This document shows, in pieces, positions 21,601 through 29,630 of a DNA stretch of 30,250 nt; position 1 is the stretch's first letter, and each line of letters opens with the position of its first letter. The position numbers were made by a program, and so were the translations under genes. A model generated the notes under the pieces. The model was not told the origin of the DNA. It did no database searches and saw nothing but the letters and a program-made list of their open reading frames with translations. This DNA comes from a virus. Location of the stretch: positions 1 through 30,250 of IMG/VR virus record IMGVR_UViG_3300042301_000402; one strand, given 5' to 3'.

Positions 21601-21995
21601 AAACCTGCAAAACTTGCGGCTCGGTGAAGCCGTTATCAGAGTATCACCGAGCAGCAGGTTACGCGGGTGGCTATAAACCACAGTGCATAACGTGCTACAG
21701 GGGGTATCAGAAAGAACAACGCGCAAAGATTACGCCTGCAATACGGAGAGACTACTGGGTTAAGCACAAGTACGGTATAAGTCTTGAGCAACAGGAGTCG
21801 CGCCTATTAGCGCAAGGCGGTGTGTGTGCTATATGCAAGAAACCTATGGCTAGGTTATGTGTAGACCATTGCCACACTACCGGCTACTTTCGTGGGTTAC
21901 TGTGTACTCCGTGTAACACCGGCTTAGGTGCATTCAAGGACGATGTGAGTAACTTGATTAGGGCAGTAGATTATCTAAAGGGGCGGCATTTATGA
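21597..21995 (+). CDS. HNH endonuclease with N-terminal zinc ribbon (probably mobile)
   Basis: A 132-residue nuclease with two zinc-binding parts. The N-terminal ribbon has C4, C7, C30 and C33 (KTCKTC ... CITC), common in phage HNH homing endonucleases. The endonuclease VII-like core has C77, C80, C103 and C106, the catalytic LCVDHCH (D90, H91) and N107. The core closely resembles that of the protein at 3742. TTG 21597 is proposed as start, since it overlaps the nozzle stop (TTGA) and gives the usual M-x-x-C ribbon start; a GTG at 21561 would add 12 residues inside the nozzle gene. It interrupts the standard order of nozzle followed by internal virion protein B. Its stop overlaps the next ATG. 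Confidence 0.85.
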   Translation: MKTCKTCGSVKPLSEYHRAAGYAGGYKPQCITCYRGYQKEQRAKITPAIRRDYWVKHKYGISLEQQESRLLAQGGVCAICKKPMARLCVDHCHTTGYFRGLLCTPCNTGLGAFKDDVSNLIRAVDYLKGRHL

Positions 21996-22705
21996 GTTCA
22001 GGCGCAGCAGCAGCCGACTTTGGTATGAAGGCGATCATAGGCATTGGCCGTGGGGTGATGGAGCAGGGTCAGGTAGACGCTGCTAACATTGTCAACGAGG
22101 CTAACGCATACGCTCAAAACCTAGTACGTGCTGCTAACAACAACCTACGAGGAAGCAGGGCTTCCTTGTCTAGGTTCAATCAAAGCATCAACAACCAGCG
22201 GGTTATGGAGAACGCCGGGTCGGCAATGGAGGCGGCGGTGGTGAACTATCGCCGTGCCCGCGACAACGCCATCAACGACGACATAGAAGCCCAGCTTGCC
22301 TTCTCGGAGCAGGCCGGGGCGCAGGCCGCTGCAAGCGCCCTATCGGGCCTTGTAGGCGGTGCTGCCGACATCGTGGCCGGTACTACCGCCCTGCGAAAAT
22401 CGCGTCTTAAACAGCGTTCTGACGAGGCCCTGAGGCTTGCTGACTATGACGCCGCGAAGCGAAGCCAGCAGATTATGCAGGCCGGTTGGGATAGCTTGGA
22501 TAGCAGCGAAATCTCTGCCGACTTGGATTACAGCGTAGACGTTGCAACCAAGCAGACACGCGCTGGTAACTTGCTGTTTGACATTCTGGGCGGGCAGGAC
22601 ACAAAGACTGTGGCTAATCTGTCCAGTTCTTCCGGTAGCTGGTTCCGCACAGTACCTAGCAACAACGAAACAACTATTCCTATGCAACGCGGAGGCGGCT
22701 ACTAA
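21992..22705 (+). CDS. Internal virion protein B (T7 gp14-like)
   Basis: A 237-residue ejection protein predicted to form part of the channel assembled in the host envelope. It is Ala-rich with long helices (VDAANIVNEANAYAQNLVRA onward) and a hydrophobic helix near residues 110-130 (ASALSGLVGGAADIVAG). T7 gp14 is 196 residues. The call rests on the position after the nozzle, the following gp15- and gp16-like genes, and this composition. It is coupled by ATGA upstream and TAATG downstream. Confidence 0.85.
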   Translation: MSSGAAAADFGMKAIIGIGRGVMEQGQVDAANIVNEANAYAQNLVRAANNNLRGSRASLSRFNQSINNQRVMENAGSAMEAAVVNYRRARDNAINDDIEAQLAFSEQAGAQAAASALSGLVGGAADIVAGTTALRKSRLKQRSDEALRLADYDAAKRSQQIMQAGWDSLDSSEISADLDYSVDVATKQTRAGNLLFDILGGQDTKTVANLSSSSGSWFRTVPSNNETTIPMQRGGGY

Positions 22706-25008
22706 TGGCTAAAGACAACACGCTAGGTGCCCCAACAGAGGGCCTAGGACAGACAGTTACGTTCTCTGCACAAGGCAGGCAGTCGGTGCCACAAACCTCT
22801 GCTATGCAGCGCGGCATGTTGCGTAACGATTCTCAAGGCGGCGGTGCAGTACGTACTGCCCAAGCCTTGCAGATACAAACCCCGGTTGGTCAGGACGCGC
22901 TGTTCAAGACTATCCAGCGGCTAGGTGGAGACCTTATCAAGGACCGCCTAGAGACAGAGCGCACGGTGCAGTACGCTGCCGGTATGCAGAAAGCAGCGCA
23001 GGGGCAAGCCCTCGAAGAGATAGTGGATGAGCAACCTTGGTACTCCAAGCTGTTCGGGTCTACTAGCTTGGTCGACGGTGCCCGTGCCTATTCTGCCTCC
23101 AATGCAGCTATGGCTGTAGCTACTGAGCTTGAGGCTAACATGCCTGAGCTTCGCAAACTATCTGCCAGCGAAATGGCCCGAGTAGCCGCCGAGAAGATCG
23201 GCTCTGTCAAGACAGGCGATGACGTAGCGGACGCCATGGTTATCCACCAGCTTGGCCGTGAGCTACCCAGCGTCCTAAAGGCGCAGGCCAAGGCACATCT
23301 ACGCTACAAGCAGGAGACTCTTGAGTCTGCCATTGGTGACAATGTAACAGGTGCTGCCACACGGCTCAGGTCTGTAGGTTCTGCGTCCCGCGCAGGGGGC
23401 GCTACGGTTGACCCTGCCGATGTGGTTCAAGCTGGGCAGAGCTTTCTGGCCGCGCTGACACGCCCTGCTGAAATGAGCAAGGAAGTTCACGAGCGGTTGG
23501 TTACTGATCGCATAGCGCGGCAAGTGTATGCGGGCAACTTCGACGTATTCAACGCACTGACAGACAGTGGCTACATTGACAGCTTGCCTGCTGAGGCACA
23601 GTTCACACTGCGTAGGGCACACAATGCTGCCAGCAATGAGGCACGCGGCAAGATGCCGTTGTCCTTCATCGAAGAACAGGCGGCTTGGGCAGTGCTTAGC
23701 TCTGACCCCAGCACCAAGCCCGAGGCCATCTTAGCGGGGCGTGAAGCCTTACAAGCTAAGTACACCCGCGTTACTGGCGACAGGTCTGAGATTATCAGCG
23801 GGTCCGCCACAGTACGTGAGCTTGAGCAGCTACGTCGCACACAAGATACTTACCGCAAGCAGCTAGCGGCAGAGGCAGCGCGGCAGTCCGCCCCTGACTT
23901 GAAGAGGGCAGCAGAGATTGCGGTCTACGACCACGACATTGCACGCATGCTTAACGTGGCTGAGCCGTACTTCCTGACCCACCTTGACGCCAAAGATCGT
24001 CAGGCAACACTCGACCACCTAGCTGCTACTCAACCCACTGAAACTCGCATGGCTATTCTGGCTAGGCAGGCTGACGTGGGCGTGTTCGACAAGAGCTTGC
24101 AGACGATCATCAATGCAGGAGTTAATGGCGCAGTACGTACTAACGACCCTGTGATGCTCAGCAAGGTGTACCAGACTCAGGTGCTGCCGCTTATTGTGGC
24201 TGGCGGTGATCGCGGTCTTGCTGTGGCTATGTCCTACATGGACAAGGACGCTGCCGAGATTATGGCACGGTACCACAAGGTAGCGCAAGGTGCTGACATT
24301 ACGCCGGAGAACGTGGGCCTTATCTACAGCAACGCGGTGCTGCCTCAACCAGCTAAGATGGAGTCCAAGGCCGATCTGGCTATTGTGGCAGAAGTTGCCA
24401 GCGGGCGTACAGGCCGATTCTTTAAGGCCGTAGGGCGTGGGCTAGGTTACGATACATACCCAGTGGAGAACGCTACTGCTGTAGCAGGTTGGCTCAAGCC
24501 GCATCTGAGCGATGCAGTCGATGACCCAGCAGACAACGTGGCGCAAGCTACTAAGCGTGCTGTGAACCTCAGCATTGTTGGGGGCTACGGGTGGCTCAAG
24601 AGCGCCAAGGCCAGTAGGCTAGATCAGTACATGCTGAACCTACCGGCTGATGTTGGAGTCCCGAGTAATCGTATCAACTACGCATTTCGCCAACACCTTG
24701 ACGGTGTGCGCGAGGCTAACGGGCTGGTTGGTGACATTCAGGTGGGGCAGGATGCTGATGCTGCTGACGGTAGCCCTCGGCTTTATGTCGTAGGCACCAA
24801 CTCCGCAGGTAGCGTCAAGATCGTATCCTTCACCGGCTCCGAGATAGTTGATAGTTACCGCAAGCGTGAAGCTGCTGACGAGTTTGACCCGACGCTAGGT
24901 TCTCCCAAGCTGACCATTACGCCTGACGTAGAGGCTCCGAGTATCTACGATAGCCCGGCTAAGTGGCAAGCCTACCGAGAGGCGCAGGCACGTAAACAAT
25001 CTAAATAG
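22705..25008 (+). CDS. Internal virion protein C (T7 gp15-like)
   Basis: A 767-residue helical protein, close to T7 gp15 (747 residues), predicted to form the periplasmic part of the ejection channel. The N-terminus is Gln/Thr-rich, followed by a helical body with IKRLGGDL-like repeats of amphipathic character; no enzymatic motif is visible. The gene order (gp14-, gp15-, gp16-like) is the main evidence, with size and composition in agreement. A 27-base segment at 24121-24147 nearly repeats one at 1130-1156, in the same reading phase. Confidence 0.85.
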   Translation: MAKDNTLGAPTEGLGQTVTFSAQGRQSVPQTSAMQRGMLRNDSQGGGAVRTAQALQIQTPVGQDALFKTIQRLGGDLIKDRLETERTVQYAAGMQKAAQGQALEEIVDEQPWYSKLFGSTSLVDGARAYSASNAAMAVATELEANMPELRKLSASEMARVAAEKIGSVKTGDDVADAMVIHQLGRELPSVLKAQAKAHLRYKQETLESAIGDNVTGAATRLRSVGSASRAGGATVDPADVVQAGQSFLAALTRPAEMSKEVHERLVTDRIARQVYAGNFDVFNALTDSGYIDSLPAEAQFTLRRAHNAASNEARGKMPLSFIEEQAAWAVLSSDPSTKPEAILAGREALQAKYTRVTGDRSEIISGSATVRELEQLRRTQDTYRKQLAAEAARQSAPDLKRAAEIAVYDHDIARMLNVAEPYFLTHLDAKDRQATLDHLAATQPTETRMAILARQADVGVFDKSLQTIINAGVNGAVRTNDPVMLSKVYQTQVLPLIVAGGDRGLAVAMSYMDKDAAEIMARYHKVAQGADITPENVGLIYSNAVLPQPAKMESKADLAIVAEVASGRTGRFFKAVGRGLGYDTYPVENATAVAGWLKPHLSDAVDDPADNVAQATKRAVNLSIVGGYGWLKSAKASRLDQYMLNLPADVGVPSNRINYAFRQHLDGVREANGLVGDIQVGQDADAADGSPRLYVVGTNSAGSVKIVSFTGSEIVDSYRKREAADEFDPTLGSPKLTITPDVEAPSIYDSPAKWQAYREAQARKQSK

Positions 25009-25016
25009 GATAGACA

Positions 25017-28000
25017 ATGAGCAGGACTGCTTTTGAGTTACAGTACCGACCAGTGGCCGAGAAGGTTGCTGATGAGTTGGGTACAACCCCGGAAGTCCTC
25101 TTGGCCCAATGGGGCCTTGAGACGGCTTGGGGTAAGTCCGTTGTTCCGGGTACCAACAACCTAGGCAACATCAAGGACTTTAGCGGCAAGGGCGTCACTG
25201 CTGTTGACAACGCCACCAAGTCTACGGATAAGTACCGCGCATATGCTAGCGTTGAAGAGTTCGGCAACGACTTCGTTTCGCTAGTCAAGCGCCGGTACCC
25301 GCAGGCTGTAGGCAAGAAGTCTGCTGTTGAGTTTGCTTCGGCGCTCAAGGCAGGCGGTTATGCTGAGGATAAAGACTACGTTGCCAAGATTGCACAGCTT
25401 GCTGGTCAACCCGTTCCTAAGATAGCTGCGGCCTACGATGCCGCCATTGACAAGTCCCGGTACGCCGGTGCTGTTCCAGCAACCGACCCGGCTAAGCGTG
25501 AGGCTGACCTCGCAGAGGTACGCTTCCAGCAGGCGGTTCAGGAAGAGGCACGACCTACCGGGATTGAAATGTTTGGTGCGGCTATGGCAGGTAACACCAC
25601 GAACAGCATCTTCGGCGCTATCTTCAAGGACCGCTTCGAGCCTGTAGAAGGCTTCAAGCCGGACATGAAGAACCTGCCTAAGGGTTGGGACACCGACCTT
25701 GCCGACGATTACGGTAGCGCACGTAGCCCGGAAGAGGCGGCGGCTGTGCTGCAACGTCACCAAGAAGAGCAGGCCCGCATCAAGGCTGTGATGGACAACG
25801 GCACGGCTCCCGGCATGGCGCTCATGTTGGGCGGTGAGATTGCCGACCCGCTCAACTGGGCGGTGCCGTGGGGTGCTGCCCGCGCTATTGGCCGACCCGC
25901 ACAGGTAACTATGGGCGGCGCTATTGCTGAGAACCTTGTGGGCGGGACGGCCCTAGAAGCCACCAAACAGGCCCTACAAGGGGACTTTCGGCCAGCAGAC
26001 CTCGCTATCAGCTTGGTTGCGGATTCACTCATTGGCGTGGCTCAGGGAGCCTTGGGCATGCGGGCGGCTGAGCAGCTTATTGAGCGCGGTAGTGAGACAG
26101 CCTTGGAGCGCACCACAGACTACGCACGCAGGGCAGAACAGCAGCTTGGGCAGGGCGCATCTACTTCGGAGCTTCGGCAGGTTATGCAGGAGCTTGAGGC
26201 CAAAGACCTGAACGAGGTTATCTCTGGCGCTATGGCTGATGTACCTACTGAGCGCAAGCTGATTGTAGACCAAGAGCCACCGGCTTCCATGAGCGTTGAT
26301 ATGCCGCAACCTAAGGCGGTGTTCGAGTCGCCCGAGACTGCGATGTGGACGGAGATAAAGTACAAGAGTCGGACGGGTAGCAAGTATGTTGAAGAGTACA
26401 CTGGCGGAACCGCTAAGACCTTTGACGAGCTTGCTGCGCTACCGCCGGGTGTCCACACTTCGCCAACGGTTACGCCGGGCCTTAGCCTGAGCGTGCGGGC
26501 TGCTGAGCAGATCGCCAAGAAGTTCTTGGACAAGGATACGGTAATCACTATCCACGCTGCTGATGTTGCTGTACCTTGGGACACAAGCCGCAAGGTCAAT
26601 GCTATCGTTAATCAGGTCAATCCAAAGATTGCGATGATTCGCGTTAACCCCGATCTACCGGCTGAGGCACAGCTTCGGGCTACAGTTCACGAAATGGGTC
26701 ACGTTATCTTCAACCAGAAGATTTCTGTGCTTACCCCTACCGATAAGGACAAGCTGGCACAGGCGTTCACGCGCTTCGTCGATAAAGCTGTCAAGCCCGA
26801 TACGGCGCAAGAAGCGCGGGCTATGCGATATAGCGTGCTGGATGGTAACGCAGTAGACACTGCACCACCTACCCAAGCATACGACCTTAACTGGGATGAG
26901 TTCAGCGCTGAGCAGTTTAGCAAGTTCTTGGCTGAGGACGTTGCCTCTGGCGCAAACGCCATCGGGCTTAGCGGCTCTGCTATTCGCATCATAAAGCGGG
27001 CTATAGAGCAGGTGCTTGAGTTCCTGCGGCTAGCTAAGCGCGAGGATATACCAGTCTCGCAAGAGTACCGAGAGTTCTTTGAGAGCCTTATCCAAGGCAC
27101 ACTCATTGAGAACGCACCGGCTCCGCGTGAGGTTAACGTACCGCAGATGTCCGTGACCACAAACCCAGCAGGTGTTGTTGACGAGTTGATGACCGACCCG
27201 GATGCTGTCCGCTTTGGTATCAACCTAGCCCCGGTAAGCACACCTGCTGAGCGCAAGCAGGCTCAAGCCATGCTGGCACTGCACAAACGTGCTGAGCAAT
27301 GGGCAGCGGCCAACCCTATGGATGGGGCTTGGATGAAACGGGCCAAGAACTTGGCAGACAATCAGGTGTTCAACGTAGCCTCGACTGGCTTGCAGATGTT
27401 GACCTCGCCTAGTCCATTGGTGCGTATGATCGCAACCAACTTGGTCGAGGATGCTTCTGGTGTAGCAGGTAAGCGCAAAGCTACCGCCGCCATCAGCAAG
27501 CACATGACCGAGCGCCTGATGATGGGTAATGCCATCAACGATGTGCAGCGTGCTTACGACCTTTGGTCAGCCAAGCGCCCCGGTGTGCATCTTGATAACT
27601 GGAACGGTGGGAAGATTCGCAAGGAGTTCGACCTAGCTGTGGCAGCAGAGATTGAGGCACGCAGGACTAGCTCCGCTGACTCGACCGACGAGCATATCAA
27701 AGCAGCGGCTGACAGCTTGCAGGCAGCGTACCAACGCATTGCCGACGCACAGCGCAAGGTTAACACACTTGGCTCAGAAGGCTTGCCCAAGACTAGCCGT
27801 GGCTATATGCCACACCGCATGAGTCCAAAGGCTGTGATGAACCTGACCAACGAGCAGAGCCAGATTCTGCACTCTGCGTTGGTAGACCAGTTCATTACCA
27901 TCGAGGGCTGGGACATGAGCTTCTCGGACAAGCTGGCAACGGCTTATATGAAGCGCATCCGTGACCGTGCCGCTGGTGACTACGGCAGTAACGTCGGTGG

Positions 28001-29630
28001 TGGTGCTAGCCACGTAGAGCTTGAAGAGGCTCTGCGCGGTATGGACTTGCCACAAGACGTTATCGACAAGCATATGGCTAGCTTCACTAAAGGTGCAGCA
28101 GGCTTCACCAAGGGCCGTATCGAGTTGGACTTAAACAAGGTCTACACTACGTCAGCCGGTGAGTTCCGCCTCATGGACATCTTCGAAACAAACCAGCTAG
28201 AGCTTCTTCGGTCACAAGCCGGTAGGGCTAGCGGCGAAGTTGCGTTGACCAAGTTCGGTGTGCGTGGTAAGCCCGGAGCCAAGCTGTTGCGTGATGCTAT
28301 GCAGTACGGTGCTGATGGGCAGAAAGCCTTGAACCGCGACCTTGAGTCCTTCGATCAGGTTACGGCTGAGTTCTTCAATGAGCCGTTTGGTGGGCACACC
28401 GGCAAGTTCGTTGAGCGTGCTATGGCCGCTAACTCGCTGGTGCGGTTGGGCGGCATCGTCTACAACCAGTTCGCGGAAAGCATCAACGGCATCGTACACG
28501 TAGGAGCAGCTAACGCTATGCGGAGCGTAGCAGGTATCCCTAGGCTACGCGCTGAGATTATCGCGCTGGCTAAAGGCGAGAAGGTGGACAACGGTTTGTT
28601 GCAGAGCATAGAGCAAGTGGGTGGGGCCGAGTTCGGTACAGATTCCTACAAGTTCGTTATGCCCTTTGACAGCCCAGACCACGCCTACCCGACCTATGGG
28701 CAGGATACCGTGACAATGGCAGATCGGCTACTGCGCGGAGGCGGCTACCTACAAGGTAAGCTGTCAGGCTGGCGTCTTATCCACAGCGCCCAACAGCGCG
28801 GTATGGCAGAGCAGATCGTTCACAAGATGGCACGCTACCTGCGCGATAGTACGGAACGTGTTACTCCTGATGGTATCTACATACGTGAGGGTAAAGAGGA
28901 CGTTGCCCTTGAGCAGTTCGGCATCAACGCCGAGGTACGTACAGCACTGCGCGGCGAGCTTGACAAGATCGCTAAGTGGGATGGTGGCAGGTTGGTCGAA
29001 TGGGACGTTACCAAGATCAGCAACCCTGACATCCGTGAGCAGGTTATTCAAGCTGTGTGGCGAGGTACTGCTCAGATTATCCAAGGCACCTACATCGGTG
29101 AGCGCGGTAAGTGGGCGCATGATGGTCTGATGAAGCTGCTAACGCAGTTCCGCACGTTCTCTATCACTTCGATGGAGAAGCAGTGGGGCCGTCAGCGCAA
29201 CAGTCGCGGTAAGTTCGCAGCAGCAGGTATCGTGCTTGGTGCTATGTCGCTAGCTGCGCCAATCTACATGGCGCGGACCTATGTGTCCAGTATCGGGCGA
29301 CCAGATCAAGAAGCCTACCTCGAAGAGCGGCTGGCCCCACAGCATATAGCTAGGGCTACGATGAACTACGTAGCAGGTGTTGGTATGGCTGGGGATTTCC
29401 TAGACCTAATCAGCGCCACTCTGCCTACTGACATTGGCATCAAGCCTACTGGTGGCCGTGCTGGTGTTGAGACTGAGTTTGTGGGTAACTACATTGCGCC
29501 GTCTCTGAGCCTTGTCGATGACGCTTGGAACTACGTACAAAGTCCGCTGAGTCTTGAGGATGCTACCCGTATCCTGCCCGGTAAGAATCTACCATACCTT
29601 GTTCCTATCCTGAATGCTGCCAAAGAGTAG
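25017..29630 (+). CDS. Internal virion protein D: ejection protein with peptidoglycan hydrolase and metallopeptidase-like segments
   Basis: The largest protein in the window, 1537 residues against 1318 for T7 gp16. Residues 1-135 form a glucosaminidase/muramidase-like domain, with a catalytic-type Glu35 in AQWGLETAWGKS and the following NNLGNIKDFSG and YRAYASVEEFGNDFVSLVKRR; it would open the cell wall for DNA entry. Near residues 440-690 lies a segment with VHEMGHVIF (H558, E559, H562) and, 66 residues on, DEFSAEQF with E628 as possible third ligand, the pattern of a zinc metallopeptidase. The C-terminal third (LVRLGGIVYNQFAESINGIV, later RTFSITSMEKQWGRQ) resembles the gp16 membrane-associated part. 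Whether the peptidase segment is active is unknown. Confidence 0.92.
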   Translation: MSRTAFELQYRPVAEKVADELGTTPEVLLAQWGLETAWGKSVVPGTNNLGNIKDFSGKGVTAVDNATKSTDKYRAYASVEEFGNDFVSLVKRRYPQAVGKKSAVEFASALKAGGYAEDKDYVAKIAQLAGQPVPKIAAAYDAAIDKSRYAGAVPATDPAKREADLAEVRFQQAVQEEARPTGIEMFGAAMAGNTTNSIFGAIFKDRFEPVEGFKPDMKNLPKGWDTDLADDYGSARSPEEAAAVLQRHQEEQARIKAVMDNGTAPGMALMLGGEIADPLNWAVPWGAARAIGRPAQVTMGGAIAENLVGGTALEATKQALQGDFRPADLAISLVADSLIGVAQGALGMRAAEQLIERGSETALERTTDYARRAEQQLGQGASTSELRQVMQELEAKDLNEVISGAMADVPTERKLIVDQEPPASMSVDMPQPKAVFESPETAMWTEIKYKSRTGSKYVEEYTGGTAKTFDELAALPPGVHTSPTVTPGLSLSVRAAEQIAKKFLDKDTVITIHAADVAVPWDTSRKVNAIVNQVNPKIAMIRVNPDLPAEAQLRATVHEMGHVIFNQKISVLTPTDKDKLAQAFTRFVDKAVKPDTAQEARAMRYSVLDGNAVDTAPPTQAYDLNWDEFSAEQFSKFLAEDVASGANAIGLSGSAIRIIKRAIEQVLEFLRLAKREDIPVSQEYREFFESLIQGTLIENAPAPREVNVPQMSVTTNPAGVVDELMTDPDAVRFGINLAPVSTPAERKQAQAMLALHKRAEQWAAANPMDGAWMKRAKNLADNQVFNVASTGLQMLTSPSPLVRMIATNLVEDASGVAGKRKATAAISKHMTERLMMGNAINDVQRAYDLWSAKRPGVHLDNWNGGKIRKEFDLAVAAEIEARRTSSADSTDEHIKAAADSLQAAYQRIADAQRKVNTLGSEGLPKTSRGYMPHRMSPKAVMNLTNEQSQILHSALVDQFITIEGWDMSFSDKLATAYMKRIRDRAAGDYGSNVGGGASHVELEEALRGMDLPQDVIDKHMASFTKGAAGFTKGRIELDLNKVYTTSAGEFRLMDIFETNQLELLRSQAGRASGEVALTKFGVRGKPGAKLLRDAMQYGADGQKALNRDLESFDQVTAEFFNEPFGGHTGKFVERAMAANSLVRLGGIVYNQFAESINGIVHVGAANAMRSVAGIPRLRAEIIALAKGEKVDNGLLQSIEQVGGAEFGTDSYKFVMPFDSPDHAYPTYGQDTVTMADRLLRGGGYLQGKLSGWRLIHSAQQRGMAEQIVHKMARYLRDSTERVTPDGIYIREGKEDVALEQFGINAEVRTALRGELDKIAKWDGGRLVEWDVTKISNPDIREQVIQAVWRGTAQIIQGTYIGERGKWAHDGLMKLLTQFRTFSITSMEKQWGRQRNSRGKFAAAGIVLGAMSLAAPIYMARTYVSSIGRPDQEAYLEERLAPQHIARATMNYVAGVGMAGDFLDLISATLPTDIGIKPTGGRAGVETEFVGNYIAPSLSLVDDAWNYVQSPLSLEDATRILPGKNLPYLVPILNAAKE

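Follow-up and report, generated by a model that had tools for sequence, protein, structure and literature searches.

The gp16-type gene and its surroundings

The window analysed here, the whole of a 30,250-base IMG/VR virus record, has a T7-like organisation. It carries genes for DNA polymerase, RNA polymerase, a head-tail adaptor, scaffold, major head protein, tail proteins, internal virion proteins and a tail fiber. The gp16-type open reading frame follows two other internal virion protein genes, the same gene order as for T7 gp16, and this position supports a virion location of its product. The genes and the main parts of the gp16-type protein are:

21992..22705, + strand, internal virion protein in gp14-like position (phrog_5745, E 1.3e-34)
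22705..25008, + strand, internal virion protein in gp15-like position (phrog_3883, E 1.1e-70)
25017..29630, + strand, gp16-type internal virion (ejection) protein, 1537 aa (phrog_342, E 2.1e-170)
25050..25400, + strand, N-terminal peptidoglycan hydrolase domain, residues 12-128 (Pfam Glucosaminidase PF01832, E 2.8e-20)
26004..26156, + strand, site B, residues 330-380, empty in the window (alignment comparison)
26253..27197, + strand, insert at site A, residues ~413-727 (alignment with T7, P14, VSW-3, Cd1, Scott, ERS and others)
27216..29627, + strand, conserved gp16 core, residues 734-1537 (core alignment, gp16 structure matches)

The phrog_342 match spans the full length of the protein, which is 50% identical to gp06 of Curvibacter phage P26059B, and the window core profile matches the solved T7 gp16 structure 7eyb (E 2.9e-13). 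The Glucosaminidase match bears out the N-terminal wall hydrolase that an earlier note on this DNA had named. The N-terminal wall-hydrolase part is interchangeable as well: where the window has Glucosaminidase, L023, f20-Xaj and Cd1 have an SLT transglycosylase, and in L020 no hydrolase was detected (genes compared: L023:5984-10891, L032:990-5897, L028:1923-5921 and L020:6042-10880). Core residues 1244-1465 (28746-29411) also match the 2087-position family phrog_37474, which has no assigned function (E 1.3e-7), hinting that the core is perhaps common to other giant phage proteins.

The earlier note had put the protein about 220 residues above T7 gp16 and compared this excess with the size of a zincin domain. 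The difference in length is indeed 219 aa (T7 gp16 has 1318 aa), but since the protein is shorter than T7 gp16 elsewhere, this figure understates the insert of about 315 aa. The note's remark that T7 gp16 is not known to have such a domain agrees with the alignment, in which site A comprises 19 residues in T7 gp16 and 330 in the window; P14, VSW-3, Cd1, Scott, DoCa7 and ERS have 35-49 residues at this site.

A predicted zincin domain in the insert

The insert contains a segment with the sequence and predicted structural features of a zinc metallopeptidase:

26373..27107, + strand, predicted zincin metallopeptidase domain, residues ~453-697 (AlphaFold2 model, PDB matches, conservation)
26688..26702, + strand, HEMGH, residues 558-562, with H558 and H562 as predicted zinc ligands and E559 as predicted general base (invariant in 54/54)
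26880..26882, + strand, Y622, candidate catalytic tyrosine, resembling the M34 Tyr before Glu (Tyr in 53/54)
26895..26918, + strand, DEFSAEQF, residues 627-634, with E628 as predicted third zinc ligand (invariant in 54/54)

The translated open reading frame contains HEMGH, E628 (codon 26898-26900) and the spacing of 66 between H562 and E628 as the earlier note gave them. H558, E559, H562 and E628 are kept in close and distant relatives alike, being invariant in all 54 non-redundant homologues, which were picked and anchored by HExxH, while E628 played no part in their selection. Across relatives whose domain identity ranges from 19% to 51%, HExxH and DEF[SA]AEQ are retained without exception. 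The spacer between the second histidine and the glutamate varies from 51 to 117 residues, and a tyrosine precedes the ligand glutamate by 5-7 residues in 53 of the 54 homologues.

A zincin fold, suggested earlier from the motif and the strands upstream of it, was also obtained by structure prediction. The AlphaFold2 model based on 37 aligned homologues (pLDDT 86.5, pTM 0.85) consists of a helix, strands, the HExxH-bearing helix, more helices and the E628-bearing helix; KIAMIRV, upstream of HEMGH, is a predicted beta strand. Among the matches listed by VIA-align 2, the best PDB chains are zincins (M34 peptidases, YbeY, M1 and M61), with lethal factor (M34) at Z 8.3 over 159 aligned residues (4.4 A), PPEP-1/Zmp1 (M34) at Z 7.3 over 147 residues (3.8 A) and YbeY structures at Z up to 7.8, where by the program's own calibration a Z near 8 is only moderate. 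Foldseek of the same model against PDB gave nothing below E 0.001, and the assignment as a zincin is accordingly based on conservation, the VIA-align matches and the fold anatomy. Weak Foldseek matches of a first model (11 sequences, pLDDT 66.6), including nuclear receptors, were rejected as noise, and profile matches to pentatricopeptide proteins, confined to the C-terminal helices, look like repeat artefacts.

Known sequence families cover the domain poorly. A weak local profile match to Peptidase_M78/IrrE (Pfam PF06114) around HExxH was found in 5 of 11 relatives; the likeness is limited to the HExxH region, and the window scores 18 bits, below the curated cut-off of 22. The window protein does not match the Pfam MPTase-PolyVal profile up to E 10, no NCBIfam model matches the zincin domain, and the match of the domain profile to 'Lethal factor', at E 0.25, is not significant. 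Since fold class, catalytic motif and third ligand agree, we regard the assignment as firm: residues ~453-697 very probably form a zincin-type zinc-metallopeptidase domain as modelled. H558, H562 and E628 would bind zinc, and the domain would be proteolytic.

Two sites with exchangeable inserts

We compared 62 non-redundant gp16 homologues from an IMG/VR scan and from named phages; they were selected for their similarity to a window-centred core alignment, and the counts are not population frequencies. Inserts of at least 250 aa were found in 46 of the 62, 41 at site A and five at site B, and never at both sites together. Some phages, among them P. putida and Providencia phages, have a zincin at site B and an empty site A. 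HExxH is present in all 46 large inserts. Fourteen homologues have neither an insert nor HExxH, and in the remaining two, L078 and L088, the insert is shorter and contains no HExxH.

In a core tree made by a quick method, the site-A zincins require at least two changes, and the site-B zincins fall in a separate lineage, other members of which have no zincin. By the tree and the alignment, inserts were gained at least twice, at two sites. In the main clade, the zincin is present in 40 of 40 members. The core and zincin identities are 81% and 32% between L014 and L042, 70% and 26% between the window and L033, and 60% and 59% between L036 and L040. Because these identities disagree in both directions, the pattern can be read as exchange of the zincin module between phages. 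The domain was not found in contigs of bacterial and archaeal genomes, and a plasmid search started from the L074 zincin was negative too; a single-sequence scan of viral contigs with the domain alone gave no matches, and relatives emerged when an alignment was used.

Other enzymatic domains are present at the same site. An ART-PolyVal domain lies just upstream of the zincin in L019 (E 2.9e-21), which is the same contig as L042. In L020, which is the same contig as L043, the domain in this position is GNAT (E 9e-6), with a score that exceeds the curated cut-off. In L078, the insert itself matches GNAT (E 8e-6) and the zincin is absent. Matches of the L042 ART stretch include a protein of a crAss-like phage with the annotation 'putative RNAP associated protein fused to zincin protease'.

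Several further stretches were noticed by eye. About 130 extra residues at site B of L088:3061-4500 contain a GNAT-like RRRGANTLMYDLL motif and have no Pfam acetyltransferase match. Upstream of the zincin, L054:2701-4500 and L038:2401-4500 look ADP-ribosyltransferase-like (VHGST...GAGFY, VYHGG...) with no Pfam ART match; the ART-like stretches in L017 and L038 were likewise recognised by eye alone, without a supporting Pfam match.

HExxH-bearing gp16 proteins or matching inserts also occur in cultured phages of P. putida, P. syringae, Xanthomonas, Stenotrophomonas, Achromobacter, Bordetella, Burkholderia, Providencia, Variovorax and Curvibacter. Among the entries seen, these proteins are annotated only as internal virion protein, transglycosylase or hypothetical protein. 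P. putida phage vB_PpuP-BotAed and Curvibacter phage P26059B are two of the cultured relatives that have the domain. The window-type zincin profile matches that of the Xanthomonas phage f20-Xaj type (93% probability; E 3e-7, calculated for one comparison), and HExxH and E628 line up. A tblastn search with the f20-Xaj zincin region gave matches to Serratia phage Parlo, in a DarB-like protein (E 3e-8), and to N4-like Vibrio phages, in their virion RNA polymerases (E 2e-3 and 7e-3); here too HExxH and the downstream glutamate are aligned. In one Schitoviridae virion RNA polymerase, that of Vibrio phage PG11 (L115:3001-3750), two HExxH motifs (HELVH and HEMTH) are 237 residues apart, suggesting tandem zincins.

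Possible role and relation to known systems

T7 gp16 is stored in the capsid core, is ejected, and builds a trans-envelope channel with local wall-degrading activity (PMC11440229); in the N4-like phage DEV, vRNAP takes the place of gp16 and has been proposed to reach into the cytoplasm (PMC10925440). By analogy, the zincin would be packed in the capsid core and ejected with gp16, and would arrive before any phage gene is expressed. It would be a passenger module in a linker, with the wall hydrolase and N-terminal helices on one side and the channel-forming core on the other, and might refold in the envelope or cytoplasm of the new host. A catalytically competent domain would hold zinc on H558, H562 and E628 with E559 as general base, and Y622 would probably stabilise the transition state, as in M34 peptidases. 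The most likely substrates would be host proteins, e.g. a defence or regulatory factor, making the domain a pre-loaded early effector. We consider a competent, injected passenger zincin acting on host proteins to be the best explanation of the whole, with about an even chance of being right.

Other explanations differ in whether the domain is an enzyme and in what it cuts. A chance HExxH in a helical linker would require no enzyme. T7 gp16 shows that bare HExxH can arise by chance in this family, as it holds one (HERLH, residue 559) that aligns to window residue 831, in the core and outside the insert, so the motif by itself is insufficient evidence. However, the chance expectation is 0.009 per 330-aa insert, against the 46 of 46 observed, and the 54/54 conservation, the third ligand, the persistence of four catalytic residues in divergent homologues and the fold prediction make this explanation extremely improbable. 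A zincin fold serving as a binding or envelope-anchoring module, or acting on RNA like YbeY, would be in line with the YbeY structural matches (Z up to 7.8). It is unlikely, given that HExxH, the third glutamate and the tyrosine 5-7 residues ahead of it are kept across very divergent sequences and that the best structural matches are M34 peptidases.

The main rival, a strong one though somewhat less likely than action on host proteins, is self-processing, in which the zincin cuts gp16 or its gp14- and gp15-like partners, in the capsid or after ejection, and frees the wall hydrolase and any further N-terminal cargo from the core. The domain is placed exactly between the N-terminal enzymatic parts and the core, and ART or GNAT cargo adjoining the zincins could need release. 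The polyvalent protein P1 DdrB, which has a zincin, is cleaved ahead of packaging, and its own zincin has been proposed as the cutter (PMC5512222), which favours self-processing in some cases and counts against the effector reading; the retention of the zincin in 40/40 of the main clade likewise fits self-processing and speaks against a dispensable effector. On the other hand, N4 vRNAP, which has such a domain, is packaged uncut (PMC5512222). Zincins have apparently been exchanged between proteins with similar cores, L078 has GNAT without a zincin, and 14 of the 62 gp16 proteins have none. These last three observations, together with the presence of ART and GNAT at the same site, favour action on host proteins, and we infer host targets rather than self-processing.

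We speculate that gp16 of T7-like phages has two cargo sockets that swap zincin, ADP-ribosyltransferase and acetyltransferase domains, and that the injection channel delivers pre-made enzymes acting on host proteins before expression, a proposal that seems to us evenly balanced between right and wrong. Studies of T7-type ejection proteins treat them as builders of a channel that also bear a wall hydrolase. Should injected protease, ART or GNAT domains be present at defined sites in many of them, T7-like phages would have an arsenal of effectors in place before expression, directly testable in cultured phages including those of P. putida KT2440. In the open-access literature searched, we found no report of a zincin or peptidase domain in a T7-type gp16, or of gp16 as a two-site exchange platform.

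The window protein shares with T7 gp16 the homologous core, the N-terminal wall hydrolase and the gene order; T7 gp16, unlike it, has no insert at site A. The M34 peptidases (lethal factor catalytic domain, PPEP-1/Zmp1) are the best structural matches and have in common with the domain a tyrosine 6-7 residues before the third-ligand glutamate, which we take to be the catalytic tyrosine of M34; the spacer between HExxH and the glutamate is longer and variable here (51-117 residues).

Zincins in injected giant phage proteins are already known. Zincin-like MPTase domains of polyvalent proteins were described in the C-terminal region of N4 vRNAP, in P1 DdrB and in ArdC, the N4 domain was tied to lethal factor, and the domains of such proteins were proposed to act by processing or as effectors (Iyer 2017, PMC5512222). 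Polyvalent proteins combine at least two disparate enzymatic domains in one polypeptide; here the window has a wall hydrolase and a predicted zincin, relatives add ART or GNAT, and the window gp16 would be injected as a polyvalent protein. Both groups have HExxH and a glutamate in a second helix within a giant protein injected with DNA (presumed for the window), and in both the zincins have ART, GNAT or lysozyme-type domains as neighbours. PMC5512222, the text of which contains neither 'gp16' nor 'T7-like', describes for one phage clade an Asp at the third position after HExxH; this Asp is missing from the window. Our observations extend the polyvalent protein theme to T7-type gp16 and connect it, through the cargo they have in common, to N4-type virion RNA polymerases, the difference being that the carrier here is the T7-type channel and ejection protein.
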